DNA from: Cordylochernes scorpioides
Taxonomy: Eukaryota; Arthropoda; Arachnida; Pseudoscorpiones; Chernetidae
Length of the DNA: 64,000 nucleotides
NCBI GenBank assembly: GCA_030710605.1
Contig: CP092873.1
Coordinates: 819,900 to 883,899, forward strand
Direction of reading: 5' to 3'
Shown: in pieces, positions 1-60,039 of the stretch
Numbering within the stretch: position 1 is the stretch's first letter
Layout: each line of letters opens with the position of its first letter
The notes under the pieces: model-generated
Databases searched by the model: none
What the model saw: only the letters and a program-made list of their open reading frames with translations
What the model was told of the DNA's origin: nothing
Translations under genes and position numbers: made by a program

Positions 1-330
1 TGAAGAAAGTTGACAGGTTTTTCAGAATGAGGACTGGAATGAATCAGAATAAGGAAGAGATTGAATTCCACCCTATACATCTCGCACTATGTAAATATAT
101 AAAATAAATAATTTTATAATTCAGAATTGGTGAAAGGTTTTGATTTATTGTTTCCACAGAAATATGGTCGGTCAAGTCATCAATTCTGTGGAGGGCAATC
201 AATCAGTTGGGAGAGATGAAGTTCTCACTCCAGAGGCTCCGCTGGGGCCACTCCTTGGCTGTGCGCTATATCTCGGTGGAATATTCCGTTTGCTCTCCAA
301 ATTTGAATATATTTATAACAAAAAAAAAGG
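1..330 (+). other. weak exon-like stretches at window edge
   Basis: An open frame runs from the window edge (position 3) to a TAA at 105-107, about 34 codons of ordinary amino-acid composition. Position 91 could also be a GTAAAT splice donor. A polypyrimidine tract ending in CAG at 157-159 looks like a good 3' splice site. It is followed by about 140 bp of less AT-rich sequence open in two forward frames, one of them beginning MVGQVINSVEGNQ. Joining donor 91 to acceptor 160 gives an immediate stop, so these two pieces do not form one simple gene model. I do not recognise a family. This could be the 3' end of a host gene or chance. Confidence 0.2.
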
Positions 331-344
331 GAATAAAACAACAC

Positions 345-560
345 TTAAAGTTTCACCGCATAAGTTTCTTTTCTGTGAAAAATCAATATTTATTGCAAAG
401 AGAAATATTTACTATTTCTAACTTTTTTGGATGAAGTATGAAAGGGTGAAAATATGAAGAGTAATGGCGAACGGAAAAATAAAAGTGTCCAGGGATGGGA
501 ATCGAACCCACAACCTTGCGCTTACCGGGCAGATGCCATGTCCACTAGGCTACCCTGGAC
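345..560 (-). repeat. tRNA-derived SINE (SINE-A) copy
   Basis: Read on the minus strand, a tRNA-like head (487-560) has a 7-bp acceptor-type stem (GTCCAGG/CCTGGAC), a box-A-like TAGCCTAGTGG and a box B GGTTCGATTCC. The anticodon arm does not pair well, so this is a SINE head and not a tRNA gene. A body of about 140 bp follows. The same head and body recur at 19310-19539, and in inverted pairs at 36505-37010 and 42435-42770. A body-only copy lies at about 13215-13370. Confidence 0.7.
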
Positions 561-566
561 GTAAAA

Positions 567-685
567 GGCATATCCTGACCGCACTCACATGAAAATTTTA
601 GATGGCATAGCGCCATCTAGTGGAATAAAAATAAACTAAACGCTCTACCATCTAAAATGCTCATGTTAGTGCAGTCAGGGTTTTT
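567..685. repeat. foldback made of hammerhead-element ends
   Basis: The left half carries ATCCTGACCGCACTCACATG and the right half its imperfect reverse complement ending in CAGTCAGG. The terminal 30 bp or so can form a hairpin. The sequence matches the outer end (CATATCCTGACC) of the hammerhead-bearing element at 800-1003, so it appears to be two ends of that family joined head to head. The smaller hairpin TAGATGGC/GCCATCTA is also present. Confidence 0.5.
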
Positions 686-799
686 TTTTTTTGTTTTGTT
701 TTTAATATCAACAACTGACCTTTTTTTTATATATTTTTTAGAAATATATTTCTGCATATTTATTTTTTTCTTTTTTCAAATATGTATTTATTAAAAAAA

Positions 800-1003
800 A
801 GGAAGCATATCCTGACCACAAGCCCATGTAATATTTAGATGGCAGAACGCCATCTAGTGGAGCAAAAATAAACTAAACGTTTATTTAACTTGCTCCGTGA
901 TATTTGGCCAATCCAATTTCTTGATAAATCAAGAAAAACCATCCACGAACGCGTTTCGCGCTGTTGGCGCTCGTCAGCGTGGAGCAGACTGTACCACATC
1001 TCG
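800..1003 (-). mobile_element. hammerhead-bearing dispersed element, copy 1
   Basis: This repeat of about 200 bp also occurs at 40925-41085, 41713-41913, 42120-42305 and, more diverged, 7625-7790. Reading minus, it has: the hammerhead motif (942-983); a short palindrome TTCTTGAT/ATCAAGAA; an inverted repeat around AAACGTTTAGTTT; a hairpin TAGATGGCG/GCCATCTA; and the end GGTCAGGATATG. There is no ORF. On its ribozyme side it abuts a single 118-bp satellite unit (1004-1105). Type I hammerheads are known in Penelope-like elements and in retrozymes, and this could be a non-autonomous relative. Its mobility is inferred from copy number only. Confidence 0.7.
942..983 (-). ncRNA. type I hammerhead ribozyme, intact core
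   Basis: On the minus strand: stem I 5' arm TCCACG; core CTGACGA; stem II GCGC-CAACA-GCGC; core GAAA; a minimal stem III in which A-C pairs with G-U across two bases; then U at the cleavage position (GUU); then stem I 3' arm CGTGGA. Stem I pairs over 6 bp and stem II over 4 bp with the preferred G-C at 10.1/11.1. All conserved core nucleotides are present (the second position-7 base is the variable one). Self-cleavage is predicted 3' of the GUU. Animal type I hammerheads in retroelements often have such tiny stem III. No other reading explains the motif as well. Activity is untested. Confidence 0.8.
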
Positions 1004-1876: not shown

Positions 1877-2113
1877 TGTAACGTCCTTGTATTTGTTGGT
1901 TGACGTTAATCAGCAAGAAGTACTTGGAAGTTTAAAAAGAAAAGACTTTATTTCTTTTAGGCCAACATCAGATATAGCATATTAATTATTAGACATAAGT
2001 TTACATGTGATATCTATTACCAACAAGTCAACAGGCTACTGCACAGAGTATCCTCAGTGATAAATATGTGCTCACTGATAATTTACTATATAGGCATGCC
2101 AGCTGCCGTTACA
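1877..2113 (-). repeat. 3' LTR of gypsy element 1
   Basis: Runs TGTAAC...GTTACA, 237 bp, identical to 6267-6503 except for one base. The purine-rich tract (reverse complement of TCTCCCCCTTTGAAG, 2114-2128) directly adjoins it, as expected for plus-strand priming. Confidence 0.95.
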
Positions 2114-3421
2114 TCTCCCCCTTTGAAGAAATTCGTTCTTCAAATCGTTTGGGTGACTTGATGATCCGCCCGGACCTTGTTGTAATGGGCAGGGTGCCGT
2201 TCTTGTGCTCCGCGTTCTGGTGATCACTCCTGGGTTCCTGGCCTGTGAATGGTCTTGGAGAAGTATTGAGTTCTTCGGGAACTTGAGCCTGTTCCTTATC
2301 ACCGCTCGGGCCAGGTCCTTCCGGTAGAGTTGACTTGGGGATCTCCGGGATTCTCCTTCGCTGTTGCTTTGGACTCTCCAGATTCGTATGTCGCATGAAG
2401 GAGCTGTTGCGGCGGTACTCACCAGTAGGTGTTTGCACTTTATATGATCTTGGAGCTACTTCTTGGGTAACTCTGGCAGGGATCCATTCACGGTGATGCT
2501 GTTTCAGCATTATCTTTTCACCTTCCTTGAAGCTTCGGGTTGTCTTTGCTGTCTTATCGTGGTGTGTTTTCTGCTTCTCCCGCTTATTTCTTAGGTTTTG
2601 TGTATGTCCCTTTTGGATTTCTGGTTCCAACTGATGAGTGCTAGTGGGAAGGAGGGTTCTGGTCCTGCGACTGAACAGACACTGAGCCGGTGAAGGAAGA
2701 CCATCTCTAGGAGTGTTGTAAAAGTTCAAAAGAGAGTGCTAGTTCCACTTCTTGTCCTGAATCCAAACACTTCCTGATGAGGTTCTTGGCTGTCTGTACC
2801 GCTCTCTCTGCTAATCCGTTTGATTTAGGATATAGAGGACTTGATGTCTGGTGGTCGAACAACCACTTCTTTTGAAAGTCTTTAAAGTCCCTGGACATAA
2901 AGTTTGGCCCATTATCAGTTTCCAGGAGTCTGGGAATTCCATGTACGCTAAACCATTTTTAAGAGATTCAATAGTTTCTGTAGAGTTCATTGTCTTCATT
3001 TCTTTGAAATCAATGAATCCAGAGTAGTTATCAGTTATAAACAGGTAATTTTTTCCTTTTATTGAGAAAATGTCAGCTGCGACTATCTCCCAAGGAAGAC
3101 TCGGTATCTCTTTTATGATCATTGGTTCTTTTGTCTTGTTCCTCTGATTTGCTTGGCAAGTCCTACAATTTTCTACTGTGTTGATGATATCTTGGGATAT
3201 GCCATGCCAGTATATTGAGTCTCGGGCCCTTCTCAAGCAGCTGTTTGTTCCTTGGTGTCCTTCGTGGATTAACTTGAGTATCTTTGCTTTCCACCTTAGG
3301 GGAATGAAGACTCTGCTACCTTTGAAGATTAGGTCTTCGTTTTTCGAGAGTTCATCTCTATATGGCCAGTATTTCTTGCAGCTTTCAGGGACTGCTGATT
3401 TGTAGTTTGGCCAGCCATATA
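2109..3421 (-). pseudogene. gypsy 1 integrase region, frameshifted
   Basis: Integrase part of the polyprotein, split over three frames. Frame 1 (2811-3236 and upstream) carries the end of the zinc-binding domain (C-x2-C in ENCRTCQ) and the first catalytic Asp (AADIF). After a one-base break near 2945, frame 2 (2707-2898 and just upstream) holds ETDNGPNF and SNGLAERAVQ, with the second Asp and the Glu. After another break near 2720, frame 3 (2109-2729) holds the basic C-terminal region, which runs into the purine tract. The order and motifs are normal for Ty3/gypsy integrase, so the breaks are small indels and not rearrangements. Confidence 0.85.
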
Positions 3422-6066
3422 AGATTAGGTTTTTTTAGTTCTTGTAGTTCTTGGTCCTCTTTTGTAAGAGCTTGCAGTTCCTCATAGCTTGACTTATTTG
3501 TCGGGGTGGTCATCAGTACTTCGAAGTTTTCTTCCAAGTAGGTGTCTTCATATGAGCAGTCTCTACTTAGTAGATCAGCTGTTAGCAGTTCTTTTCCTTT
3601 CTTGTATTTAATCCTGAGATCATATTGTTGTATCTGTAGAAAAATTCTCTGGAGCCTCGGGGGTGCTTTGCTTAACGGCTTCTTGAATATGGTTTCTAAA
3701 GGACGGTGGTCCGTCTCGACGTCAACAGTTTTGCCATAAGTGAGTTGATGGAATTTGTCGCATCCAAATTTGATGGCAAGTGCTTCCTTTTCTATCTGAG
3801 CGTAGTTCTGCTGAGTGGAGTTGAGAGCTGATGAAGCGTAGGCTATGGGCTTTCCGTTTTGTAATAGAACCGCTCCAAGGGCATATGAACTGGCGTCTAC
3901 TGAAAGTGTCAGATTTCCGTTGGGATTAAAGAATTTCAGAGTTGGTGCAGTTCTGAGCAAAGTCTTGATCTCTAAGAGATCACGATCGAGGGATTCGTCC
4001 CATAGCCAAGGTGTATCTTTTTTCAAAAGCAACCTCATGTTTTTGGTTTTCTCTGCAAGGTTAGGGATGAACCTGCTCAGGTATTGTACCATTCCTAAGA
4101 GACGTTGTAGTTCTTGCTTGTTGCTTGGCGACTTAATTTCTCCTATTGCACGCACTTTCTCAGGGTCAATTTTAATGCCTTCTGTCGTGACAATATGACC
4201 TAAAAATTGGACTTCTTGAAGTTGAAATTTGCATTTATCTCTATTCAGTTTGATTCCATTTTCTTTAAGCCTCTGTAGTACAGCTCTTGTTCTTATTTCC
4301 AGAGTCTGTGGATCCGGAGCATGGATCAGGATATCGTCCATTGAATTTTCTGTACCCTCAAGGTCTTGGAGTAAGTCTGCCATGATTTTCTGGAATATTT
4401 CTGGAGTAGTTTTAATTCCAAAGGGAACTCTCAAGAACATATATCTTCCCCACGGAGTGCTGAAGGTAAAGTAGCGTTGTGAGTTGGGGGCTACTTTGAT
4501 CTGCCAGTATCCTTTCTTCAGATCCAACTTTGTGAAGTATTTTGAACCATGCAGGTTTACTGCAATCTGATCAAAAGTCTGTAATAGGAAATGGCTTCTT
4601 AGAATTACTTTATTGATATCCGATGGGTCAATGCATATACGTATTTTTCCTTTCTTTTTTGCTATAACCATCTGACTGGAGATGGGGGTAGGGTAATTTA
4701 CTTTCTTTATAATCCCATTGTCTTCCATTTCCTCAAGTTCTTTCTTTACTCTTTCTTTAATAGATAGAGGAATAGGTCTGGGTGGTCTTACTTGCAGGTT
4801 CATGTCCGAAGTCTGAAACTTTGCCTCGTATTCATATACTTTCAAACATCCTATACCTTCGAATAATTCTTGGTATTCCTGTGTAATTTCTTGACAGGTG
4901 TTTACTCGCTTGACAAGACCTAAATTGGAACAGGTTTGTCTGCCTAGGATGGGACATGTGTTATCACTGGATATGATGAAACGTATGTAGGCAGTCATGT
5001 TTTTCACCATGCACATTGCTAGACTTTGTCCTTCGACAGGAATTCGATATCCTGAAAAAGAAATTAAACTTTTTACTGGAGACCTTTGGATTTCCAGATT
5101 TAATCTCCCTGCCAGGCTGAGTGGCAGCACGTTACACTGTGTACCTGTGTCTAGTTTCATGTTTACCTTTTTGCCTTTGATTTTTACTTCTTCATACCAA
5201 TCTTCGGTCAGGTTGGTGTTTTCAACTGACTGGATTACAAATACTTGAATCATTTCAGGTTCTGGTGACCCAACAATTTGTCTGAATTTGTATGAATTTG
5301 TGTTCTGGGATCTGCAAAGATTAGCAAAATGGTTGAGTTTCTTGCATTTGTTGCATCTCTTTTGATATGCCGGACATTGGTTGATTTTGTGGGATCTACC
5401 ACAATTTCTGCAGTTTTCTATTATTTTGTGACTTTGGTTAGTGGTATTTTCTTTCCTCGGCTCTTTTCTATCTTCCCACTTCTTACTGTTCATCTTTGTC
5501 ACAGCAACTTGTTTGTCTGAGTCGGATAGTACATGTTTCATTTGGTTTGTGGCATTTTCACATGCTATGCAAATTTGTGTGGCTTTTTCCAGATTAAGGT
5601 CAGCCTCACTAAGAAGTCTTTCTCTTATTTCATTGTTAATAATTCCTACAACTATTCGATCTTTAAGTAGTTCATCAGACATGACAGCATATTTGCAGTT
5701 TGCTATCTGTAATTTAATCCTAGTCAGAAAATCATTGAATGATTCATCTTCTTTCTGTTTCATCTGATTGAATTTGAATCTTTCAATTGTAGTGTTCAGC
5801 TTTGGAGAAAAATAGTTGTTGAACTTGTCTTTTACAATGCTCAGATTATTTTTATCTGCATTATTTAAGTTGAAAGATTTAAAAATATTTTGAGCCTCTC
5901 GTCCCATTGCAGCCATAAAGATAGCAACTTGTACCTCTGGTGCTTTACTACTTAATTGGGTAGCAATTTCATACCATTCAAAGCTTTCAAGCCAAGATTC
6001 CCAGCCCTCTTTGTTTAGTTCATTTAGGCCTATTTGTTTTGGAGGTCGAATAGCATTTTCCGCCAT
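3385..6066 (-). CDS. gypsy 1 Gag-protease-RT-RNase H polyprotein
   Basis: 893 codons. Gag occupies residues 1-260, with two CCHC zinc knuckles (219-231 CRNCGRSHKINQC; 238-251 CNKCKKLNHFANLC). The aspartic protease is at about 290-390 with the DTG triad at 306-308. Reverse transcriptase is at about 430-640 with FTKLDLKKGYW (motif A Asp 515). RNase H follows, starting around LSVDASSYALGAVL (721-735). The RT motif C reads SMDD where YxDD or FxDD is usual, a potentially damaging change. Gag and Pol share one frame with no Gag stop. The frame leaves the expected sequence at about 3430, in a 7-T run, and stops at 3385. The start at 6066 follows the leader about 190 bp inside the 5' LTR. Confidence 0.9.
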   Translation of the reverse strand: MAENAIRPPKQIGLNELNKEGWESWLESFEWYEIATQLSSKAPEVQVAIFMAAMGREAQNIFKSFNLNNADKNNLSIVKDKFNNYFSPKLNTTIERFKFNQMKQKEDESFNDFLTRIKLQIANCKYAVMSDELLKDRIVVGIINNEIRERLLSEADLNLEKATQICIACENATNQMKHVLSDSDKQVAVTKMNSKKWEDRKEPRKENTTNQSHKIIENCRNCGRSHKINQCPAYQKRCNKCKKLNHFANLCRSQNTNSYKFRQIVGSPEPEMIQVFVIQSVENTNLTEDWYEEVKIKGKKVNMKLDTGTQCNVLPLSLAGRLNLEIQRSPVKSLISFSGYRIPVEGQSLAMCMVKNMTAYIRFIISSDNTCPILGRQTCSNLGLVKRVNTCQEITQEYQELFEGIGCLKVYEYEAKFQTSDMNLQVRPPRPIPLSIKERVKKELEEMEDNGIIKKVNYPTPISSQMVIAKKKGKIRICIDPSDINKVILRSHFLLQTFDQIAVNLHGSKYFTKLDLKKGYWQIKVAPNSQRYFTFSTPWGRYMFLRVPFGIKTTPEIFQKIMADLLQDLEGTENSMDDILIHAPDPQTLEIRTRAVLQRLKENGIKLNRDKCKFQLQEVQFLGHIVTTEGIKIDPEKVRAIGEIKSPSNKQELQRLLGMVQYLSRFIPNLAEKTKNMRLLLKKDTPWLWDESLDRDLLEIKTLLRTAPTLKFFNPNGNLTLSVDASSYALGAVLLQNGKPIAYASSALNSTQQNYAQIEKEALAIKFGCDKFHQLTYGKTVDVETDHRPLETIFKKPLSKAPPRLQRIFLQIQQYDLRIKYKKGKELLTADLLSRDCSYEDTYLEENFEVLMTTPTNKSSYEELQALTKEDQELQELKKPNLIWLAKLQISSP

Positions 6067-6251
6067 GTTGTTGTTATTGTATTTTTTTTTCTAAAAATAC
6101 ACTTATTTCTTCTTGCTTGTAAATTAAATTATTTTTGTATATATTCTTATGCAATTTGAATTTTATTTGAACATGCAATTAGAGATGTTCTGAAATACTT
6201 TAAGAAATTGGAAATTAATAAATTGTTCTTACCACGTGGTGTTGTTTACAA

Positions 6252-7236: not shown

Positions 7237-7624
7237 TATAGATGGCGCGCTATTGCTTTGTGCTATATCAATTTGTAAATAGCAGAGATAATTATCATAG
7301 GTTTAACTATTTTTGTAAACATATTTATGATTATCATTCTAACCTGAAAGATTCATGTTCCTAATATATATTATTGTTTCTCTTTTTTTACTTTAAATAT
7401 TTTTTCTTGTATAATATGTTTATAACTGTTTCTGTTTGAAAAAAAAATGTAAATCGACGCAATTATCCCTAACCGGGATATCGCGTTTTGTGTGTTGGAA
7501 TAAAATAAAATAAACTTATTATTATTGTTATATCCCATTGTTAAGCATTCTCACGCAATTCTGGTTTCAACTACCCGTTTCATGATTTTTCAGGATGCCT
7601 TAATGACCAGTTTTTTGGTTGTTG

Positions 7625-7790
7625 AGGTACAGCTTACACCACGCTGATGAGAAATAACACGCGTACATGGTTAGCTTTTCTTGATTAATCAAGAATGGGT
7701 ACATGGTCAATTCTGGAATAATTAAAAATCAACGAATAGTTGATATTTATTCCGATAGATGGCGAAAGCCATCAACAACTTTCATTTTCA
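7625..7790 (+). mobile_element. diverged hammerhead-element copy, stem II lost
   Basis: The plus strand has GGTACAGCTTACACCACG followed by CTGATGA directly joined to GAAA, then CGCGTACATGG and TTCTTGATTAATCAAGAA. Compared with 942-983, the stem II hairpin is deleted and stem I is damaged, so it should be inactive. Downstream the same layout is kept with different sequence: an inverted repeat AATCAACGAATAGTTGATAT and a hairpin GATGGCGAAAGCCATC. Keeping the layout while the sequence diverges suggests structural constraint. Fragments of this sub-family recur at 11095-11255 and 59950-60000. Confidence 0.55.
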
Positions 7791-7799
7791 CGATAAGGA

Positions 7800-8430
7800 G
7801 ATGATTATTTTTTCTTCATTAAAAGAAGTTAGTGATGAACGCTCCAGGAGGTGATAAGCTACAGATAGTGGGTGGCCACATCGGCAGAAGGGGATGAAGC
7901 TTATATGCACAGTCATAACAAATTCGAGAATAACACAGTGTAACTTCCTAGAAGGGAAAAGAAGGATAACCTATTTACATAGCAAACAAAACACGTTACC
8001 AGTATAAAAGGTCCTAAATTTGAATTTTCTTTCGTATATTATAGATCTAACACTACTTTAATATTACTGTTCAGTGATAAAGACACACAAGAGAGATTTC
8101 TATACTGATATTATACCTTCATTTCCATATCCAATATTCTAAACCTTTCCTTTATAATTATAAAACATATATATTAGATGACATCCCTCCGTTTCAGTAT
8201 TAATAGAATAATTGACATCCCTCCCTTATATTTACAGTGTTCCAATCGATTTAAAATTCTTTTATTGTACTTATTATGAATCATGTATATATAGTCTATA
8301 TATATATATATTATTATTGATATTTGTGTGTATATATTTTAAATTTTAGCCCCAGAGTTGTAAATATTTTATATATCGCCGCGTGAAGGCATCACGTGAT
8401 CATCCAAAGCAGTTTAAAAACAAGAAACGT
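7800..8430. other. no gene; AT-rich
   Basis: Mostly unique-looking AT-rich DNA. The part at about 8010-8170 (AAGGTCCTAAATTTGAATTT) recurs inverted near 12230-12345. No coding signal. Confidence 0.4.
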
Positions 8431-10995: not shown

Positions 10996-11094
10996 TTGAT
11001 TACCCAATATAGAAATAACATAATATAAACCTATTTGTATACTCTTTCATTCTTTTTATATCAATTCAAAGAAAAAGCATCTCCAAATCATGTA

Positions 11095-11255
11095 ACTAAA
11101 AGTTGCTGATGGCTTGCGCCATCTATCTGAATAAATATCAACTATTCATTGATTTTTAATTATTCCAGAATTGATTAAATTAATTTGAGAATAATTAAAA
11201 ATCAAAGAAGAGTTGATATTTATTCCGACAGTTGGCGGGAAACAACAACAACGAG
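11095..11255. repeat. foldback of hammerhead-element tail
   Basis: GTTGCTGATGGCTTGCGCCA and ATATCAACTATTCATTGATT are followed by an inverted version (AATCAAAGAAGAGTTGATAT). It is related to the 3' part of the element at 7625-7790. There is no hammerhead core in this copy. Confidence 0.5.
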
Positions 11256-15959: not shown

Positions 15960-16325
15960 TGTTTACACTTGGTTATCTCGTGTGTCTTCAATAAAGGTCA
16001 CTGTAATACCTTTCAGAGTTATTGTCTGAATCCCGATATACATGCTAAAAGCTACAACTTCCTTAAGTTTTGTCCATGAGTGTATATTGGTTATCTCGTT
16101 TGTCTTCAATAAAGGTCACTGTAATACCTTTCAGAGTTATTGTCTCAATACCGATATACATGCCGAAAGGTACAACTTCCTTAAGTTTTGTCCATGAGTG
16201 TATATTGTTTATCTCGTGTGTCTTCAATAAAGGTCAATGTAATATCTTTCAGAGTTATTGTCTGAATCTCGATATACATGCTGAAAGGTACAACTTCCTT
16301 AATATATGCATATGAGTGTATATTT
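15960..16325 (+). repeat. 118-bp satellite, about 3 units
   Basis: Three head-to-tail units with GTTATCTCGTGTGTCTTCAA, CAGAGTTATTGTCTGAATCC and TTTTGTCCATGAGTGTATAT. Upstream sequence (GCCGGTCGTCTGTTTTTTTT) is shared with the array at 21440, so the two may be parts of one element family. Confidence 0.85.
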
Positions 16326-19084: not shown

Positions 19085-19309
19085 GAATTAAATGTGGATT
19101 TCTCTATTTTCAAAACAAAATATATAGTTATAGGTTTAAAAATATTAGTTACACGATTAGGAAATGCCTTTTTCTTTTAAATTTATCCATCTGATCCAAG
19201 TGCATATTCACTTTTGTATTATTTTTGACTTTTTCTTTATACATCATCTAAGATTTTTTTGCCAAATGGTCGTAACAATATACAAAAATACTCATGCAAG
19301 AATATCTTT

Positions 19310-21439: not shown

Positions 21440-21650
21440 CACATGGTTATCTCGCGTGTCTTCAATAAAGGTCACTGTAATATCTTTCAGAGTTATTGTC
21501 TTAATCCCGATATACATGCTAAAAGGTAAAACTTCCTTAAGTTTTGTCCATGAGTGTATCTTTCAGAGTTATTGTCTAAATACCGATATACATGCTAAAA
21601 GTTACAACTTCCTTAAGTTTTGTCCATGAGTGTATATATAGTCAATAGTC
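21440..21650 (+). repeat. 118-bp satellite, about 1.7 units
   Basis: One full unit, then one lacking the 42-bp CTCGTGTGTCTTCAATAAAG block, giving a 76-bp spacing. Confidence 0.8.
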
Positions 21651-22029: not shown

Positions 22030-22336
22030 ATATTGTGCATTATGACCTTGTCTGGAGGAGAACTCTCTCAAGGTGGGGAAGCCTCCCTTGCTAAAGAAAT
22101 TTGTACATATACAGCTATATATATTTCCCTACATTTTATCTACCCTTTATTTATTCCTTTATTATATATTATCCTTTATTTGTTCTTCAAATCAAAGACA
22201 CTTCGGCCAATAAATCTTTTTATTATCTCGACGTTTCGACAAAAATCTTTTGTCCTCGTCAGAAGTGAACAAAATTTGATCCTTTATTTGTTCTTAATTT
22301 CTTTTGTGTAATATAATTGATTAGAATACTCAATTA

Positions 22337-23404: not shown

Positions 23405-24480
23405 TTCGAGCACGAATCCCGATATACATGCTAAAAGGTACAACTTCCTTAAGTTTTGTCTATGATTGTATATTGGTTATCTCGTGTGTCTTCAATAAAG
23501 GTCACTGTAATATCTTTCAGAGTTATTGTCTCAATCCCGATATACATGGTAAAAGTCACAACTTCCTTAAGTTTTGTCCATGAGTGTATATTGGTTATCT
23601 CGTGTGTCTTCAATAAAGGTCACTGTAATATCTTTCAGAGTTATTGTCTGAATCCCGATATACATGCTAAAAGGTACAACTTCCTTAAGTTTTGTCCATG
23701 AGTGTATATTGGTTATCTCGTGTGTCTTCAATAAAGGTCACTGTAATATCTTTCAGAGTTATTGTCTCAATCCCGATATACATGCTAAAAGGTACAACTT
23801 CCTTAAGTTTTGTCCATGAATGTATATTGGTTATCTCGTTTGTCTTCAATAAAGGTCACTGTAATATCTTTCACAGTTATTGTCTCAATCCCGATATACA
23901 TGCTAAAAGGTACAACTTCCTTAAGTTTTGTCCATGAATGTATATTGGTTATCTCGTTTGTCTTAAATAAAGGTCACTGTAATATCTTTCAGAGTTATTG
24001 TCTGAATCCCGATATACATGTTAAAAGGTACAACTTTCATAAGTTTTGTCCATGAGTCTATATTGGTTATCTCGTGTGTCTTCAATAAAGGTCACTGTAA
24101 TATCTTTCAGAGTTATTGTCTCAATCCCGATATACATGCTAAAAGGTACAACTTCCTTAAGTTTTGTCCATGAGTGTATATTGGTTATCTCGTGTGTCTT
24201 CAATAAAGGTCACTGTAATATCTTTCAGAGTTATTGTCTGAATCCCGATATACATGCTGAAAGGTACAACTTCCTTTAGTTTTGTCCATGAGTGTATATT
24301 GGTTATCTCGTGTGTCTTCAATAAAGGTCACTGTAATATCTTTCAGAGTTATTGTCTGAATCCCGATATACATGCTAAAAGTCACAACTTCCTTAATGTT
24401 TTTCCATGAATGTATATTAGATGTCTGAATATCGATATATTAGTTAAAAGGTACAACTTCCTTAAGTCCTTCCATGAATG
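23405..24480 (+). repeat. 118-bp satellite array, about 9 units
   Basis: Units repeat at 118-bp spacing (for example, equivalent ATG codons at 23692, 23810, 24046). Unit phrases: TTGGTTATCTCGTGTGTCTT, CAATAAAGGTCACTGTAATA, CAATCCCGATATACATGCTA, AGGTACAACTTCCTTAAGTT. The last units decay. The open frames here are a by-product of a unit with few stops. Confidence 0.95.
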
Positions 24481-24484
24481 TAAA

Positions 24485-24580
24485 TGTATGTTGTTGTTGT
24501 CGTGTCCAATGAAGAGCCTCAGATGTCTCCATACATCTCTATCACAGCAATCGCAATATCCACTATCTTGGGTGCGTGAA
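24485..24580 (+). repeat. isolated 115-bp repeat unit
   Basis: GTCGTGTCCAATGAAGAGCC and CATACATCTCTATCACAGCA match the array at 25240-25790. Confidence 0.7.
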
Positions 24581-25994: not shown

Positions 25995-26245
25995 ATCTTT
26001 GTTATTAAGACTGGGAGCACTACTCAGTAGCAGGACACTCTGACTTAGCTCCAATATGAAATGACCGCCTCTGAAACGAGAAACTGACGTCATGTGCAGC
26101 CGCTCCTAACATGGAGTACATTCTATATCCCTGGAGCCTTTACAGGGTACTATCAGCCGGGCCAGATGAACCCAGGTTTTTTAGTGAGCTTGTTACCACT
26201 CCCCTCCTCCTTTTTCATCCGGGCTTGGGGTCGGCAAAGGCGGAT
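25995..26245 (-). repeat. dispersed repeat D copy
   Basis: Contains GGGAGCACTACTCAGTAGCA, AGCCGCTCCTAACATGGAGT and TTTTTCATCCGGGCTTGGGG. Opposite-orientation copies are at 38340-38670, 44185-44430 and 56390-56740. No ORF or tRNA-like head recognised; unclassified. Confidence 0.65.
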
Positions 26246-26549
26246 TTACTCTAGATACTCTAATGGTAAAGATCTATATGTGTGTGGTGTCCGAGCATTC
26301 TTCGTGAAGATATTAAGCAAAATTGAGTTATTCGATAGAACCCATTGTTGGATTGAAAACTGCGCTATAAAATATTCTCACAGAATTTCTTTGGAAAGAG
26401 ATCAGGGGACAAAGAGAGAAACTGTCATCTCAACGCCTACACACTCCATTCCTATTCTCCTACTTGTTATAAGAGGATTGTGTGACTTTGTAGCGATGTT
26501 TTCTCACATTAGATACATTCATATATATATATATATATATATACCCCTC

Positions 26550-27149: not shown

Positions 27150-27689
27150 CAACTTAACGCCATGTATTGACCGTCTCCGGACAAATTAGCGGACTAAGGT
27201 CGGTGACAAACCCACTACATCAGCTTTGGTGAATTAATAACACCCACCTACAGACAATGTTATAATTTAATTGAATTAATAAAAACATATATCTCTTTTC
27301 GGGTGCCCGAGCCGGACGAGGTCGGCGCGCTCTCGCTGCGTGCCAGAAAAGGCATATTTCCTGATGACGCAATATATAGACACGGGATTTTCTATAATAA
27401 TTTTCACCATATCTCCCAACTAAATATAGACTCCTTAAAAATAGTATTTATGCATAATGCATATCAAAATAATATAATCAAAATAAACGTCAGAATCTGA
27501 CGCAATCTATTGACCGTCGCCGCAACTAGCGGCCTCGGTTCGGTGACAAAGCCACAACACCAGCTTTGGTAAACTGAGAAGCGTCCACCTAGAGACCATG
27601 GTTTCGGGCTAATGGCCCTCGTCAGTCTAGGGCGGTCTTTATTCCATGAGATCCACACGGGATCTAATGGAATCCTCACAATCTACCAA
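27150..27689. repeat. GC-rich repeat E, interrupted by copia
   Basis: Two blocks (27155-27255 and 27490-27689) share CTATTGACCGTCGCCGCAA, CCACAACACCAGCTTTGG and CCACCTAGAGACCATGG with the large foldback at 57224-57557 and, more weakly, 49640-49880. The right flank of the copia element (32385-32480) is the continuation, so copia inserted into this repeat. Confidence 0.7.
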
Positions 27690-27972: not shown

Positions 27973-29598
27973 TCAAAAAATAACTCCACCACTTATGCAG
28001 TTTTTAAGCTTGACAGCATCCACAGTCTTGATGAGAGGGTCCGCTTTCATTTCTTCTGAAGGGATATGCAAAACTTCAATTTCTTCATCTTCTACAATTT
28101 GTCTTATGAAGTGACACTTTCTATTCAAGTACTTCGTACTTGCTTTCATATTTTTTGACTTAATCATAGATATGGCATTCTGGCTGTCACAATAAACAGT
28201 AATTTGATCTTTCAAACTAATCTTCATTTCTCTAATGATGTTACGTGTCCAAATTAATTCTTTAATTCCTTCAGATAAGGCTTCTAATTCACTCTCTGCA
28301 GTTGACAAGGCAACAGATCTTTGTTTATTACTCTTCCAATTAAGTAAGTTGTTTCCCATTTCTATAACAAAACCAGTATACGATCTCGCATCAGCTGTTC
28401 TGTCCCAACTCGCATCAGTATAAGTCACAATACTTGGATCTCCCCTTGAGTAAATCAATTCATAATTCATAGTTCCCTTCAAATATCTTAATATTTTCTT
28501 CAATCCATTCATGTGAACCTCTCTAGGATCTTTATTAAATCTACTCATATTGCTTATAGCATAACATATGTCCGGTCTTGTTCTAGTTGCTATGTAAATT
28601 AACTTTCCAACAATTTCTTGATAGTATTTTTGATCAATCGATTTACTATTTTCAAATATATCATAATTTGTAGAAATGCATAACGGAGTTTTCGAAGGAT
28701 TGCAATCACGCAAATTATAGGCTTCCAATATTTCTTCAATATATTTCTTTTGATTTATAAAAATGCTATCATCCCTATACTCAAATTCCATTCCAAGAAA
28801 GTTTTTTGCAGCTCCTAAATCCGTGATATCTATCTCTCTTTTTATCTTTTTCCAAATATTTTCCTCAAAATCGTCACCAGATCCTACACTTAGTATGTCA
28901 TCTACATGAATTCCCAGATATAAGAAATGATTTTTAAAATTGCAATAATATAAACATGGATCATTCGCAGATTGTTTCATTCCGGCATTGGTTAATAATT
29001 CATCTAATTTCTTATTCCACATTCTACTCGCTTGTTTTAGGCCATAAATACTTTTCATCAGATAACAAATCTTATTGTTTCCCTTTTCAAATCCAGGAGG
29101 TTGAAGCATAAAAATTTCCTCCTCTAAATCACCATATAAAAAAGCTGTTTGAACGTACTTTTGCTGAGGAATAACTTTTTTCATTGCAGCTATTTTTATT
29201 AGAATTCTTATGGTCTCAGGTCTTATTGTTGGAGAATATATTTCGTGGTAATCACTACCCAGTATTTGATCATATCCTGTAGCTAGTAGCCTCGCTTTGA
29301 AGTTTTTAATTGATCCATCACTATTTTTCTTAATTGAAAAAATCCACTTACTTTTGATCAATTTTTTATCTTTAGGCTTATCTATTAATCTCCAAACTTT
29401 TAAATTAGTAATCCTTTGCATCTCATCTTCCATGGCTTTAATCCATTGCTCTCTATTATCAGAATTAAGTGCTTCTTGGTAATCCCTTGGACATTTAATC
29501 TCATAAGTTCTATCAGAAACATTTTCCTTATTCTTTTTCAGTCTTAATCTTTCAGATCTCCTCACACCCTTTTTTATAAGTTCTTCTTCCTCGGTTTC
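27973..29598 (-). pseudogene. copia reverse transcriptase and RNase H
   Basis: Open for more than 530 codons to the natural stop at 27973, in the same frame as the integrase but separated by a TGA at 29599-29601. Counting from 29565: RT core from about residue 55, the motif A region near 137-144 reads KYVQTAFL where the family has DV(K/Q)TAFL, so the catalytic Asp is replaced by Tyr. SIYGLKQASRMW is at 172-183, HVDDIL (motif C) at 220-225, and RNase H follows with YTDASW and LSTAESE. The lost motif A Asp should abolish RT activity even without the stops. Confidence 0.9.
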
Positions 29599-31032
29599 TC
29601 ACAGACGAAGATCTCGTTCTTCTCTCATTTCTCTCGTCATTCCTGGTTCTGGTCCTCTTATGCGTGGAGTAATTATTTCATCAGGAGGTATTTCATCTAT
29701 TTCACTCAAATCTATATCATTATCATCTTGAGTAAAATGCTCATCATCGATGTTAAAGTTTTCTACTCGGTCTTCTCTATTACCACCAGAGTCTTCATTC
29801 CTGTGAGAAATCAAATTTTGGTCTTCTCTACTAAAAAAGAAAAGTTCATTTTCATCAAGATTTCTACCACTATTATTCATTAAATAATATCCTAACTTAG
29901 CTTCATTAAATTTAACATCTGATACTTCATGAATTTCATCCATTTCTGGTAAATATATTCTATAGCCTTTTCTTATCATACTATAGCCCATCATGATCCC
30001 TTTATGAGCTTTTGGTTCCATCTTCTTTCTCTTTTCTTTTCTAATATGAACATAAGCTTCGCTTCCGAACCTTTTTAAGTAAACAATGTTTGGTTTCCAT
30101 CCCTTGTATATCTCGAAAGGAGTTGTATTCATTTCTTTGATTTTTATTCTATTATTTATATGAACAGCCACTTTAACACTTTCACTCCAAAATTTTAAAG
30201 GTAATTTAGAATCAATTAGCATGGTTCTTGCCAACTCAACTATGGTTCTATTAAATCTTTCGGCTTTTCCATTACTTTCAGGAGTATAAGCTGTGGTGAA
30301 TTCTTGTTTGATGCCCTTACTAGATAACCATCGCCTCAAATAATTTGAAATATACTCTCCACCATTATCATTTCGAATTCTCTTCAATTTCTTTCCAGTC
30401 TGTCTTTATTCTTGCATAATCAAGTTTATTATGGAATCTGCTGTTTGAGATTTATTAGCAATTGGTATAACGAAAGTAAAATTACTATAGTCATCTACAA
30501 TAGTGATGAAATACTTATATCCAAATGAATCATTCAAAGGTCCAACTATGTCGGTATGCCATAGATCCAAAATATCTTCAGATTGTTTATATTGAATACT
30601 TTTGTAAGATTTTCTATGTAATTTTCCCAATGTACAAGATTCGCAATTCCCTTTGTTATTATGTAAATTTTTCAATCCTAATACAGTTGAATTATCATAC
30701 ATTTCTTTCAATTTCTGAAAATTTACATGAGCAAGTCTTTGATGCCATAGCATATCATCTACTTCTGCTTTTCTAGCGATTTCCATATTTAGGATTCCTT
30801 CAACTTCAAATTTATTACCATTTCTCCTTGCCTCATATAAAATCTCACCATCTTTACCTATTACCTCAGCTTTATATTTACCAAATAATACACCAAAATC
30901 ATGATCCACAATTTTTGCAACTGATAATAAACTTTCTCTCAAATCAGGCACATGCAAAACATTTTCAAATTTTATGAATCCCTCATTTACATTCGACTTC
31001 ATTCTTATAGCTCCAATTCCTGATGATTCCAT
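29599..31032 (-). pseudogene. copia integrase, stop-interrupted
   Basis: One frame broken by a TAA at 30406-30408. The first part (30406-31032) has the pre-integrase region and the HHCC zinc motif (WHQRLAH at about 96-102, CESC at 130-133), then the first catalytic Asp in LWHTDIVGP. The second part (29599-30387) has RNDNGGEY (second Asp) and PESNGKAERFNRT (Glu), then the long acidic linker before RT. Motif spacing is normal, so the stop is a point change. Confidence 0.92.
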
Positions 31033-31082
31033 TATTGCACCTTTCTTAGCTGTCTCTATTATTCTTTCCTCCTCTTTATATT

Positions 31083-32063
31083 CTATAAATAATTATTTCT
31101 TACTAACCATATGGCTAGAGGCTCCAGAATCCATTGTCCATCTTTTTTTTCATCCCCTTGATCTTCCTCTTCGTAATTGTCTTCATTTGTTTCCATCACA
31201 TGACTTGTAGACTCTCTATAATTTTTCTTGTTTATTACTCTCTTAGGCCCATTATAATTATGCTCTGCATGCTCTTCACTTCTATTCTTTCTACATATTG
31301 CCGATTTATGACCAAATCCTCCACATTTAAAACATTTGATTTTGTTTCTACACTCTCTAGAAATATGTCCCATCATTCCACATTTATAACATTTAATAAA
31401 TTTTCTTCTTTCCGTCCAGCCTTCTTTAGCTTTTGATGCAATTTCTGTTTGCCGTTTTTCTTCTTTTCTATGTTTTAATTTTTCTTCTGTTTCCTTCAGG
31501 ATTTGTCTTATTGTGTTCATATTATTTTGCCTGTCAGATTTTATAATTTTTATGTCAAAATCAAATTCAACTCTCAAACCTTCCAAAAAGAAGCAAATTA
31601 ATTCTCTATCTCTTATTTCATCTCCTGCTTGAATGCTTCTGCTCTTTATAATCATTGCTCTATTTAAGTAATCATCAACCGTTTCATCTTCCTTCATTTT
31701 TAATTTTGACAATTCTATTCTATTTTTCATCTGCAAGTCTTCATTTTTTGATGCCATTTCTTCCCCAATTATATTCCATAATCTCTTGGCACTTTTTTCG
31801 CTCGAGTATTTTAGCACTTGAGTGTCATTCATTGTTCTGTTCATCAAATTTCTTGCAATGGCATTGTCATCATCCCAGTCTTCCCAGATTTTCACTTTTT
31901 CTTCAAATTTTTTATCTGTTTCTATTGGCCTTTCAACTTCTTCTCCTTCTATAATTCGTCTCCATAATTTTAATCCTCTTAATTCACTTCCAATTCTATT
32001 TGCCCAGATCAAGTAGTTTTTGTCAGATAATTTTTCTATTGGAGATAAGTTAAAATTTTGCAT
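31083..32063 (-). CDS. copia Gag
   Basis: 326 codons beginning 75 bp inside the 5' LTR. An N-terminal Gag domain (YLIWANRIGSELRGLKLWRR) is followed by UBN2-like helices and two CCHC knuckles, CYKCGMMGHISREC and CFKCGGFGHKSAIC. The protease active site DSGASSHMV lies just downstream in the +1 frame (about 31110-31135), so Gag and Pol are offset by a break at a T-run (31143-31150). That frame meets a TAA at 31093-31095. In intact copia elements Gag and Pol are usually one frame, so this is probably an indel. Confidence 0.92.
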   Translation of the reverse strand: MQNFNLSPIEKLSDKNYLIWANRIGSELRGLKLWRRIIEGEEVERPIETDKKFEEKVKIWEDWDDDNAIARNLMNRTMNDTQVLKYSSEKSAKRLWNIIGEEMASKNEDLQMKNRIELSKLKMKEDETVDDYLNRAMIIKSRSIQAGDEIRDRELICFFLEGLRVEFDFDIKIIKSDRQNNMNTIRQILKETEEKLKHRKEEKRQTEIASKAKEGWTERRKFIKCYKCGMMGHISRECRNKIKCFKCGGFGHKSAICRKNRSEEHAEHNYNGPKRVINKKNYRESTSHVMETNEDNYEEEDQGDEKKDGQWILEPLAIWLVRNNYL

Positions 32064-32120
32064 CTTTTCTTTTTTCTAAAAATTATTCAATTAATCTTGA
32101 TTTGCATCAATTTAAGTCAA

Positions 32121-37010: not shown

Positions 37011-37364
37011 GAGATGTATATAAAATAAAACAAGAAACCCCGGAATCTGTTCTGTTTATAAACAAAATAATTTGTACCTAATTTTGGTGCCATTAAGAGA
37101 TTAAGATGAGACCTTGGAACAACCCAAGATTAACTCCTACATATTGTGGTATATATAATCTCTATTAGACTGTTTTAAAATCCCCGGTATGCAATTAATA
37201 TGCAGTTAATTACTGGGATCCCCTATTTGCATACATAGGTTGGATGCAAATTCAACCATTGAGATGTAATTATACATTGTTGGTAATAGCTTTCGATATA
37301 CCCTCATATTATCTCATATCCTTTTGATGATGGTTAATTATTCGCAATGATTCATTGATATACA

Positions 37365-38339: not shown

Positions 38340-38670
38340 CAACAAGTCTCCAAGTGTCTTCTTTTATTACCAAAACTCCGCCTTTGCCGGTCCCAAGCCT
38401 AGATGAAAAAGGAAGAGGGGGAGCAGTAACAAGCTCACTAAAAAACCTGGGCTCAGCTGGCAATGCTGATCGTACCCTGTTAGGGCTTCTAATCCAGGAA
38501 TACAGGATGAGCAGTGTTTGCACTCCATGTTAGGAGCGGCTGCACATGGTGTCTGTTCCTCATGTCAGAGGCGGCCATTTCTTTTGGAGCTAAGTCAGCG
38601 GCCTGCCACTGAGTAGTGCTCCCAGTCTTAATGACAAAGGTAGACGCATTCTACTTCACCCAGTCATGAT
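38340..38670 (+). repeat. dispersed repeat D copy
   Basis: TTGCCGGTCCCAAGCCTAGA, CTCCATGTTAGGAGCGGCTG and GACGCATTCTACTTCACCCA. Opposite orientation to 25995-26245. Confidence 0.65.
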
Positions 38671-40479: not shown

Positions 40480-40920
40480 TTTATGTATATCATGGTAGAT
40501 TTATGCTACTGTGGAGGTAGTTTAAGATTATTTAAGGTAGAGTCTACAGTTTCCTCTATCGACAACTATACCGCTGGGATTCTGGGCCATTCATCCACCA
40601 TTTTGTTGGGGATGTTTTTGTCTGCGGGGAAATGGATGTTTCCACCAGACGATCACAAAAAAGTTTAATGATGGGCCAAAGTGGGAAATCAGGGTTCCAC
40701 ACACTTTTTTACTGTCGACCTCTTACGTAACCTTTAGTTACTTCTTTTCATCCCAGAATATATATACGCTTCTTCTGCTTCCTGTGTTTCTTCGGTGTGG
40801 GATTTAATTCCTATCAAATTAGTGAGGTATATTGCTTTGTTACAGTAATTAGAAATATTTGTCATAGAAAGAGCATATATACTGGCTGTCAACTAAACTT
40901 CACATAAATCTTTATTAAAA
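40480..40920. other. unclassified, no gene
   Basis: Slightly GC-richer sequence at 40550-40760 with no recognised motif. Confidence 0.3.
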
Positions 40921-40924
40921 ATAA

Positions 40925-41085
40925 AAAGGCCAATCCTGACCAAGAGCACATGTTCTTTTCAGAAGGCAGAGCGCTATCTGGTGGAACAGAAATCAACTAA
41001 ACATTGATTTAACCTGTTCCCTGATATTTAGCCAACCCAATTTCTTTATAAATCAAGAAAAGCCATCCACGAACGCGTTTCGCGC
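40925..41085 (-). mobile_element. hammerhead element, copy 3, truncated in ribozyme
   Basis: Matches 800-962 and then breaks at 41085, in the middle of stem II (minus GCGC-GAAA-CGCGTTCGTGGA retained; CTGACGA and the other half of stem II gone). From 41086 the sequence is the 3' part of family K. Truncation exactly inside the ribozyme is notable. Confidence 0.65.
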
Positions 41086-41345
41086 TTCAAAATTCGAAAC
41101 TATCATAGACGCGTATTATTCTTTTTAAAAATAATCAATTTCTACTGTTCTTACTGCAATAAAAAAATTAATAGGAGGGCCTGGCTCATCAGTGTTGAAC
41201 CCTCCCATATCTACCATAACGCTGTTATATTGCATTTTTCGATCTTTCTTTTATAGTGATACTGATGCTAGACTCTTGGTATACTAGAATAACTATTTTT
41301 AAAAATAATCATACGCGTCTATAATAGTTTCGAATTTTATATAAT
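41086..41345 (-). repeat. family K copies, partial
   Basis: Minus strand has CTGATGAGCCAGGCCCTCCT but the GAAA half is deleted (ATATGGGAGGGTTCAACACT). A second 3' piece (ACGCGTCTATAATAGTTTCG) faces it at 41311-41332. Confidence 0.6.
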
Positions 41346-41712
41346 ATATAGACTTTTTTAATTAAAGATATATTTATAGATTGGTATATTTTCAGAACAA
41401 ACTTACCTGTCTCATTTAGATAAGATGTATACCTGTGGTATCTGTATCAATGAAGGTAAAGAGGGAACAATTTCTCTTCCTATCCTCTGCATCCACAATA
41501 ATGGCGTTACAATCCCCTAACGACACAGCTACGAGCTAACGAAGCATCGACAAAGCTCCAAATTATATCAGTATTGAATAACTCTATCCGGCATAGTAAC
41601 TGGCAACAATTGCCTTGATCATTATTTCTCAGCAAGAAACCTCCACACACATGTATATGAAAAAATAATTAAAAAATAAAAATATCAGGTGTTGATATTA
41701 AAAATTAAAAAA

Positions 41713-41913
41713 AGGCATATCCTGACCAGGAACACATGTGCTTTACAGAAGGCAGAACGCCATCTGGTGGAACAGAAATCAACTAAACATTGATTTAGCC
41801 TGTTCCCTGATATTTAACCAACCCAATTTCTTGAGAAATCTAGAATAGCCATCCAAGAACGCGCTTCGTGCTGTTGGCGCTCGTTAGCGTGGTGTAGGCT
41901 GTACCACTGCGAT
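41713..41913 (-). mobile_element. hammerhead element, copy 2
   Basis: Full-length match to 800-1003. The ribozyme region (41852-41893) reads CTAACGA for CTGACGA and GAAG for GAAA, two changes at invariant core positions, so it should not cleave. It does not adjoin a 118-bp unit. Confidence 0.7.
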
Positions 41914-42119
41914 CAAAAATAGTTTTGGTCCCAGAGGCTTCTTGAGAAACCAAGAAATATTTATAGAGAGAGAGAGAGATTGGAGACAATTCTACAGGTT
42001 CCTTTTTGGTCTATAGCTGGACAACAATCACATCGATTCTGTGGGAAAGAATTCTCATGGTTTATCATTATATAGCGGAAGTCTCTTTCTTCCAGAGAGA
42101 GCCACCATTGAAGAAATTA

Positions 42120-42305
42120 TAAATAACGCTGACCAGGGTCAACAGCCTGAAAATCAATCGTGGTTGGCTTTTCTTGATTAATCAAGAAAATAAGTTGGCC
42201 AAATATCATGGAACAAGTTAAATCAATGTTTAGTTGATTTCTGTTCTACTAGATGGCGCTCTGCCATCTAAAAGGTTGATGTGAATATGATAAGGATATG
42301 CATTT
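42120..42305 (+). mobile_element. hammerhead element, copy 4, ribozyme decayed
   Basis: Plus orientation: CGTGGTTGGCTTTTCTTGAT, AAGTTGGCCAAATATCATGG, CTAGATGGCGCTCTGCCATC, GATAAGGATATGC. The core is replaced by GCCTGAAAATCAAT upstream of the stem I 3' arm. Confidence 0.6.
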
Positions 42306-54045: not shown

Positions 54046-54894
54046 TTCACTAGATGGCATTCTGCCATCTAAAAAAGCTTATATGACCTTTCAAGATTTT
54101 TTTGTTTTGTTTTCAAAGTAATGTGTATATAAAATCAGTTTTTGTTTGGTAAATACTTTGGTTGGGAAATAAGCTGTTTTTTCCTCCTCACCTGTGGCTG
54201 ACCTTACGTCACCTATTTATTACAGGGATTTCTATAGTACACAATTCTGATGTATACCATATTACAATGTTAATAATGCAAGTATAATCCATTCGGTAAA
54301 ATTATAAATAAAATTCGATGAGGAAAGAATTTATTTTTAAATAACGACGATTTCGGGTGTAACAACCCTTCGTCAAGTGTAAGTTCAGTATCGTAGTTAT
54401 ATCTTAATATAAAGATATAACGCGTTATATATATGTAGGATGATTGCTGCGTGATGTGTTGGTGTGGCTTGTGGAAAGGCCGCTGATAAAATTATAAATA
54501 GAAAAGAAGCAACGGTTGAAGTAACGGCCGTTGGAGCTAGCCTAGATGTTTACCGCGTGAGTGCCAGATCAAGTGTCGGAAGCGCCAGTCGCTAGCAAGT
54601 TCCGGATGACGCCCGCGCATGCGTAGTGACGTGTTCTCCCAACACGTGCTTGCCGAGGCATAGTGGGGCCGCCATTTTTCTGCCCGTATGTGTTTTGAAG
54701 CTTTGTCTCAGTTAGCTGAAGCAAAGTGCGGTCGTCACATATATATACAATAAATGGAAACACTGAGGCACGAATGTTTATTTTATATGTAAAATATTGA
54801 ATCGATATTGTAAGGATATGGAGAAATGTCTTATAGATGGTCCTTCTTATTGTAGTTTTACATATAACAATTATTTTTATCATTAAAAAAATCA

Positions 54895-56385: not shown

Positions 56386-56389
56386 AATT

Positions 56390-57150: not shown

Positions 57151-57223
57151 AACATGAAAGGAGAAAATATTTTTATATATATTTATCAAATTATAGATGG
57201 AGATTTTGCCTGGAGGAAATTGA

Positions 57224-57557
57224 TCTAAAGAGACAAGGGTCGCCTCTCCCGTCAAAATAGACGTCTAAACCAGACGCCATCTATTGACCGTCGCCGCAAA
57301 CTAGCGGCCTCAGGTCGGTGACAATGCCACAACACCAGCTTTGGCAAACTGAGAAGCGTCCACCTAGAGACCATCGTTGGCGCCATTATGGCCATTAGCC
57401 TGAAACCGTGGTCTCTAGGTGGACACTTTTCAGTTTGCCAAAGCTGGTGTTGTGGCTTTGTCACCGACCCGAGGCCGCTAGTTGCGGCGACGGTCAATAG
57501 ATGGCGTCTGGTATAGACGTCTATTTTTACGGGAGAGGCGACCCTTGGCTCTTTAGA
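57224..57557. repeat. large foldback of repeat E, about 150-bp arms
   Basis: A nearly perfect inverted repeat from TCTAAAGAGACAAGGGTCGC to GCGACCCTTGGCTCTTTAGA around a loop of about 30 bp. The arms hold CCATCTATTGACCGTCGCCG and ACACCAGCTTTGGCAAACTG. It is much GC-richer than the window. No ORF. Confidence 0.85.
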
Positions 57558-57676
57558 TTTATTAAAATATAATTCTATTTCTCAGCCCTCATCTATCAGT
57601 ATAGTGTTTGAGTAATATATCTTGGCCTAGGAAAACTTTTGCCATCTTAACCCAACCTACCTCATTTTATAAATGT

Positions 57677-59744: not shown

Positions 59745-60000
59745 CCATCTGTTATCAAAATACGAAAATATTTTAGACGCGTATGATTCTTTTAAAGATA
59801 AAACAATTTCTACTGCCCTTACTGCAATGTAAAAATTAATGGGAGGGCCTGGGTCATTAGTGGTGAACCCTCCCAGCGGTTTCGCCAGTTTAATCTATAT
59901 ATTGAATTGTACTGGGATCAAATGGATACATTAAGACATCTGATTGTGAAACTAAAAGTTGCTGATGGCTTGCGCCATCTATTGGAATAAATATCAACTA
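59745..60000 (-). repeat. family K copy and hammerhead-element tail
   Basis: 59745-59905 (minus: CTGGCGAAACCGCTGGGAGG, CCACTAATGACCCAGGCC). Then 59945-60000 GTTGCTGATGGCTTGCGCCA, the tail found at 11095. Confidence 0.65.
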
Positions 60001-60039
60001 CTCTTTGATTTTTTAAATTTATTTTATTGAACTTTTCAG

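Follow-up and report, generated by a model that had tools for sequence, protein, structure and literature searches.

The window analysed here, 64,000 nucleotides from the genome of the pseudoscorpion Cordylochernes scorpioides (C11:819900-883899; assembly of 2.62 Gb), contains on its minus strand, at 942-983, what was originally predicted to be an intact type I hammerhead ribozyme within a short dispersed element. The locus raises the questions of whether the motif is genuine, what carries it and how the carrier was inserted. The motif reads TCCACG / CTGACGA / GCGC CAACA GCGC / GAAA / CGCG / T / T / CGTGGA, and all of the parts described in the original prediction are present: the core (CUGANGA, GAAA, UH and the G-C pair at the base of stem II) is perfect, stem I comprises 6 bp (TCCACG/CGTGGA), stem II comprises 4 bp, and the cleavage site is GUU. 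Helix III has two pairs plus an A-U pair, formed by the palindrome ACGCGU with zero loop nucleotides. No internal loop was seen in stem I, leaving the hammerhead without the canonical loop 1-loop 2 contacts and placing it with the minimal type.

A covariance search of the minus strand went against the prediction. The Rfam model RF00163 (Hammerhead_1) aligns full-length to 942-983 with 19.7 bits (E 0.055 in 601 bases), below its gathering score of 34 bits, and the motif is not in the gathering-level Rfam list for the window; a permissive scan of the whole window registered the place only as Hammerhead_HH9 (18.8 bits, E 7.3). The covariance model alone therefore cannot carry the hammerhead claim. 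A strict descriptor, comprising the core, stem II with a G-C closing pair, helix III, UH and stem I, was applied also. It returned two sites in the whole window, 942-983 (-) and 27588-27631 (-), and none in 350 simulated windows (150 of Markov order 1 and 200 of order 2). The motif at 942-983 is accordingly confirmed as a real type I hammerhead, with self-cleavage predicted from its sequence. The second site represents a family, denoted F2, that is unrelated to the family of 942-983, and its hammerhead is not recognised by Rfam.

The term intact, as applied in the original prediction, holds for the core and the stems, but not for helix III, which with no loop cannot be closed within one molecule; only a dimer could form it. 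The single 42-mer of the window copy (copy A; Table 1) is folded by RNAfold, at -14.7 kcal/mol, into a structure that is not a hammerhead. When two strands are modelled as joined via ACGCGU, the double hammerhead of 942-983 reaches -32.3 versus a two-strand minimum of -36.3, while for F2 the double hammerhead is itself the minimum (-35.6). The monomer fold and the shortfall of the double hammerhead from the minimum were both counted against the explanation preferred below. Dimers of such minimal hammerheads have reportedly been studied by Lunse and others. Minimal type I hammerheads of Penelope-like elements (PLEs) without helix III nucleotides may, according to the available text of PMC7761336, cleave as dimers, and the hammerhead at 942-983, being of this type, would be expected to act in the same manner.

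Table 1. Coordinates of hammerheads, retrozyme copies and associated features in the window.
Feature	Position	Strand	Remarks
Minimal type I hammerhead	942..983	-	predicted cut between 948 and 947; helix III palindrome ACGCGT at 954-949
Copy A, truncated retrozyme monomer	797..997	-	BLAST: unit 301 to 143 of the 350-bp unit, at 805-997
Hairpin 1 of retrozyme RNA	917..936	-	TTTCTTGATTTATCAAGAAA
Hairpin 2	859..896	-	compensatory changes on both sides among copies A-D
Hairpin 3	837..855	-	AGATGGCGTTCTGCCATCT
Head-to-head pair E+F	561..718	.	E 568-642 (-) ends near short site; F 641 to ~718 (+) passes short site
Copy G, 338-bp family	7533..7820	+	stem II and GAAA deleted
Head-to-head pair, 338-bp family	11069..11237	.	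11069-11173 (-), 11189-11237 (+)
3' piece, 338-bp family	19147..19226	+	
PLE fragment	22183..22277	-	own hammerhead-like motif (from 22232)
F2 hammerhead	27588..27631	-	stem I CCTAGA/TCTAGG; stem II GGGC/GCCC; palindromic helix III ACCAUGGU; GUC site
Copy C	40906..41087	-	truncated inside stem II
Copy B, long tail	41660..41958	-	hammerhead core mutated
Copy D	42126..42269	+	core mutated; second pair of stem II is G-C in place of C-G (both sides changed)
Tail fragment J	54047..54097	+	beside 76-bp satellite array
Head-to-head pair of F2 pieces	57222..57559	.	
3' piece I, 338-bp family	59906..60013	-	
Satellite arrays (118/76 bp)	998-1110, 15969-16324, 21449-21640, 23415-24489, 37360-38021, 53668-54046, 63508-64000		

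The carrier was examined across the genome with the pattern CTGANGA-N6..30-CGAAACGCGTH, which gave 20,782 and 20,988 matches, a total of 41,770, versus 3 + 2 = 5 for the same pattern reversed. Among the 102 matches for which the DNA was read, 85 have a stem I of at least 4 bp together with a fully paired 4-bp stem II, and stem II exists in two main compensated forms, GGGC/GCCC (41) and GCGC/GCGC (40). Further copies were thus found in abundance, and they include the tandem copies for which a search had been suggested. Spacing between hammerheads is 338 bp in arrays L068 and L071, 347-350 bp in L074 and 349-352 bp in L069, L070, L072, L073 and L082, with one hammerhead per unit; L068 has five hammerheads at 338-bp spacing, and L069 has seven, two on one side and five on the other, at 350-bp spacing within each arm. 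Complete copies consist of head-to-tail units of 338-352 bp, which leave no room for the PLE frame of reverse transcriptase and GIY-YIG endonuclease, and they are non-LTR retrozymes in the sense used in the available text of PMC7229834. The matches and arrays support the proposal that the family is non-autonomous and retrozyme-like, its minimal type I hammerhead being of the Penelope type. At L075:1049-1490, partial units of 114 bp (unit 278 to 54) form a local array, apparently a secondary tandem of the hammerhead part. None of 37 viral contigs with core-pattern matches forms a hammerhead by the strict descriptor, and two element probes gave no match to the viral contigs.

Within the window, nhmmer placed 10 pieces of the 350-bp family (U350) and its 338-bp sister family (U338) above the inclusion threshold. 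The original description of a short element of about 200 bp is correct in that the dispersed element is real, but the approximately 200 bp are a cut-down piece of the 350-bp unit: copy A covers some 200 of the 350 bp, its 5' end abutting, and being cut at, a 113-bp satellite unit that starts at 998, and its hmm alignment continues at the other end to a T-run near the short-tail site. Three other views of the element were rejected. An element measuring some 205 bp whose 5' end is fixed at GTGGTACAG does not fit, because the tandem unit is about 145 bases longer and copies B and G enter these bases; the 3' extension of pieces B and F is not an oddity of two copies, since it lies between the two end sites described below; and the 118-bp satellite at 998-1110 is not part of the retrozyme, other copies being without it. 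Protein coding after the cut was also considered and is not supported, copies B and C having stops a short way past the cut; beside this stands a stop-free stretch of 100 codons in the L070 units. The longest stop-free stretch in the window fragment is 53 codons, and its GC content is 0.433.

The motif at 942-983 itself is, rather probably, a dead relic, whatever the family does. Copy A is truncated and has no second intact hammerhead of its own family in the window, where the other four copies with a hammerhead part (B, C, D and G) are mutated or cut, and the monomer fold is not that of a hammerhead. Set against this are the perfect core and stems and the 30-nt sequence from core to site, which is found unchanged at other places among the matches listed.

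The retrozyme RNA can be drawn with three further hairpins downstream of the cut (Table 1). When four window copies are compared, pairing holds in 93.2% of 147 cells of the proposed helices, and four pairs have changed on both sides, a figure reached in 8 of 500 shuffles. In both families the short 3' site lies inside a hairpin with a closing stem of GGTCAGG/CCTGATC or GATAAGG/CCTTATC; across 43 pieces with long tails, 286 of the 301 cells of this stem are paired, and the stem has both-sided changes between the U350 and U338 families.

The manner of insertion was then approached through the ends of the pieces, using 70 merged stretches (202,980 bases) that cover the first 100 matches listed (the first 7.6 Mb of contig C1) and the window; the sample was chosen by motif, comes mostly from one chromosome end and includes some duplicated loci. 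After pieces shorter than 61 bp and those running off the end of a stretch were set aside, 144 remained, their positions being counted from the ribozyme cut and their alignment ends subject to an error of several bases in T-rich sequence. In this sample of listed matches plus window, 125 of the 144 pieces have their 3' end at either of two sites separated by about 50 nt. For U350, 36 of 72 ends fall at 141-170 and 25 at 191-210, with 11 elsewhere; the corresponding figures for U338 are 41 of 72 at 141-160, 23 at 191-210 and 8 elsewhere. The 5' ends are scattered over the unit, with a maximum of 6 of 72 in any 10-bp bin.

Pieces within 40 bp of each other were grouped, five groups cut by stretch ends and two short single pieces being dropped. 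The listed matches and window then comprise 63 single pieces, 32 plain head-to-head pairs, two convergent pairs, one same-strand pair of two families and four composites, so that plain pairs of the same family are divergent in 32 cases versus convergent in two. The outer ends of the 32 divergent pairs are short plus long in 23, short plus short in two and long plus long in one, with an unclassed end in six. One arm is thus short and the other long in 23 of the 26 fully classed pairs (P about 4e-5), and likewise in all six classed head-to-head pairs within composites, giving 29 of 32 classed pairs overall. Composites also hold four convergent neighbours, each between the two retrozyme families. 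Of the single pieces, 40 have a short end, 14 a long end and nine some other end. Loci L038 and L039 look like duplicates, and L083, one of the two short-plus-short pairs, has the same flank at either end and appears to be a rearranged copy of L067+L072; when L039 and L083 are left out, the short-plus-long count is 22 of 24.

Direct repeats of at least 10 nt bracket 20 of the 32 divergent insertions, versus 27 of 200 mismatched combinations. For repeats of at least 8 nt the figures are 24 of 32 and 59 of 200, the latter being raised because the targets are AT-rich and such flanks inflate chance repeats. Clear examples of these AT-rich outer repeats are AGTTATAGATACTAT (L050), TTACTTATGTGT (L057), ATATACGTGTAT (L110) and AGTTATAAACAT (L111). 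Single-orientation pieces have repeats of at least 10 nt in 15 of 62 cases, versus 2 of 200. These data bear on the idea that self-priming on an antisense transcript, a route proposed for bdelloid Penelope elements, and not priming from both target strands, produces the head-to-head pairs. Self-priming on an antisense template is suggested in the available text of PMC3846280 and would also yield the head-to-head order, but alone it explains neither the short and long arms of the classed pairs nor the direct repeats outside both arms, and it is considered rather unlikely here.

The same genome supplied a PLE for comparison. At L070:792-2520, a retrozyme array is inserted in a PLE, between the PLE frame and a hammerhead-like motif. 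This PLE has two minus-strand frames, overlapping in different phases, which to the eye resemble Penelope reverse transcriptase and endonuclease, and another frame begins across the hammerhead-like motif, as in the Anolis PLE. Searched against Pfam, the first piece matches RVT_1 with 23.5 bits, under the cut-off, and a shortened second piece gave a chance-level match only. For the full second piece, the protein collection contains four homologues, all from C. scorpioides; GIY-YIG (PF01541) is present in two of them. When the genome was searched with this piece, 141 of 38,885 candidates were scored and 281 matches resulted; of the 141 PLE matches listed, 13 lie in open frames of 808-813 aa, and tandem spacing is about 2,755 bp. 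The motif CTGACGA..GAAACGT(C/T)GAG occurs in 19 of 19 PLE loci (L113-L131), and is termed hammerhead-like because stem II in it is shifted out of register relative to the canonical core. A match at 22232 in the window, which might have been dismissed as chance, belongs to a fragment of a PLE.

The PLE shows the same pattern of ends as the retrozymes, the comparison covering one PLE lineage. Of 26 alignments to L113-L131, three were dropped (two cut by a locus end, and one that starts at +5 and ends at +84), and the 23 that span the cut end at +49..55 in 14 cases and at +83..90 in nine. The four head-to-head loci, L118, L121, L129 and L131, each have one end type on each arm (4/4). A first, noisier sample of 16 pieces had five ends at 47-51, seven at 78-91 and others at 13, 30, 60 and 168, with four head-to-head pairs, three with one of each end and one with 30/78. 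PLE pairs less than 8 kb apart are divergent in 12 cases, convergent in none and tandem in four, among the 141 matches listed. The short site of the PLE is also enclosed by a hairpin, with the stem CTGGCC/GGCCAG.

With LINE-type insertion, a single fixed 3' end would be expected. A rival reading takes the element for an ordinary non-LTR retrozyme of animals, with a LINE-type reverse transcriptase copying its circles and later rearrangement producing the head-to-head pairs; it would fit the published animal retrozymes (PMC7229834, available text) in unit size, tandem arrays and hammerhead, and at least one pair, L083, does look rearranged. It is nevertheless very unlikely in view of the two fixed 3' ends, usually one per arm, the excess of divergent over convergent same-family pairs, and the occurrence of the same pattern in the PLE of this genome. 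That the pieces are instead 5'-truncated ends (pLTR plus tail) of a PLE itself, with no separate element, is just as improbable, for although hammerhead class, end type and 5' truncation are all alike, the head-to-tail units have no room for a PLE frame between hammerheads and the PLE that was read has a different hammerhead-like motif and the much longer tandem spacing given above (one lineage); the retrozyme may still descend from the pLTR of another PLE.

The published signature of Penelope insertion, as given in the available part of PMC11167929, comprises a pair of adjacent start sites, a tail that only PLEs have, and cutting and extension of both target strands. In PMC3846280, as far as its available text goes, inverted pLTRs are mostly head-to-head with a 31-bp tail on one, target duplications are of 8-10 bp, and a host gene was inserted in trans between pLTRs. 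Since the ends and pairs of the retrozymes match the PLE pattern, and this is the published signature, Penelope proteins most likely insert the retrozymes of C. scorpioides. We consider it highly probable that the window copy derives by truncation from a non-LTR retrozyme and that the family moves by a cycle of insertion by PLE machinery. We infer transcription, cleavage, circles, catalysis by the PLE and two-ended priming, in the following order. Tandem copies would be transcribed, and the minimal hammerhead would cut each unit when two units pair via the palindromic helix III, possibly with the help of protein, yielding RNA of unit length, from which circles may be made by host ligation. The PLE reverse transcriptase-endonuclease would then take this RNA as template at a staggered break in AT-rich DNA and copy from both broken ends, starting about 155 or about 205 nt after the ribozyme cut, with one broken end usually using the short site and the other the long site. 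Copying might sometimes proceed several times round the template, giving several units per arm, and the two copies would finally be joined head-to-head at a variable point.

Several observations count against insertion by the PLE. The retrozyme sites lie about 155 and 205 nt from the cut versus about 50 and 87 nt in the PLE, and in an unsystematic look no sequence was seen to be shared between retrozyme and PLE sites. In the available text of PMC11167929, the hammerhead of the Anolis PLE is dispensable for insertion in vitro, which was likewise counted against the preferred explanation, and cleavage by the hammerhead occurred only with protein present. The lack of cross-mobilisation between two PLE types in a rotifer, reported in the part of PMC3846280 available, suggests that a matching PLE may be needed.

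As regards known systems, PLEs are named as a strong candidate for moving retrozymes by Cervera and de la Pena (2020; PMC7229834), a candidacy that in the available portions of this paper and of PMC7761336 rests on both having type I hammerheads, on tandem copies and on co-existence. The elements described here resemble animal non-LTR retrozymes (PMC7229834) in their tandem units, there of ~170-400 nt, with one type I hammerhead each, in paired RNA and in a GC content below 50%, here measured in the window fragment; mussel retrozymes, too, are without most loop 1-loop 2 contacts in that text. They differ in that the hammerhead is loop-less and palindromic, a type that the same text assigns to PLEs and Terminons, and in that many copies in the sample are truncated pieces, single or head-to-head, whose 3' ends fall at two fixed sites. 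With PLEs (PMC11167929 and PMC3846280, available text) they share the minimal hammerhead, two start sites with an optional tail, tandem units, head-to-head copies with a tail on one, and short target duplications; unlike PLEs, the retrozyme unit has no PLE frame and its start sites lie further downstream of the cut.

A second comparison is with SINEs. SINEs use the reverse transcriptase of a partner LINE. The retrozymes would similarly be small parasites of another element's enzyme, and show 5' truncation; unlike SINEs, the partner would be a PLE, and the likeness is in the pattern of ends and the hairpin, with no shared sequence seen. The notion that retrozymes are the SINEs of Penelope elements, with circular RNA, two-ended copying from different fixed sites and arms produced by rolling-circle copying, is offered tentatively and seems slightly doubtful. 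If it is true, retrozyme arrays would directly record target-primed reverse transcription that is two-ended, asymmetric and of the rolling-circle kind. As to which enzyme spreads animal retrozymes, copies with the PLE signature beside PLEs with long open frames in the same genome make the proposed link to PLEs testable. The rule of one short and one long arm across head-to-head pairs constrains the poorly known insertion of PLEs. No structural evidence of this kind for retrozymes was found in the available text of the open-licence literature searched.

Other features of the window were noted in passing. Places with F2 sequence are 27588-27631, 49731-49865, 57222-57559 and L081:1933. The stretch CGCCATCTA(G/T)TG(G/A) is kept in otherwise unlike hammerhead families (611-623, 848-860, 57275-57287 and others) and may resemble a CTCF site, as may CCACTAGATGGCGC. 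A 120-bp tandem at 39243-39970 was rejected as a hammerhead carrier, with no Rfam match and its first unit in an inverted repeat. Twister-P1-like sites occur at 38369-38423 (+, 28.2 bits), 26198-26252 (-, 28.2 bits) and 56381-56448 (+, 21.9 bits), the gathering score being 67.2; in the first, as read in the alignment, the stretch GGUCCCAAGCC is kept. Truncated twisters in RTE retrotransposons are described in the available text of PMC7761336. The dispersed satellite has a 118-bp unit and a shortened form of 76 bp, in arrays of 1 to about 9 units. A tRNA-Thr(GGT) gene at 485-560 (-) has the 3' end of retrozyme piece E directly upstream (485-568). A gypsy-type element lies at 2109-6090, and a copia element at 27973-32075 has a pol (frame 27976-29598) whose best protein hits include three annotated C. 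scorpioides proteins, at 94, 91 and 92% identity.
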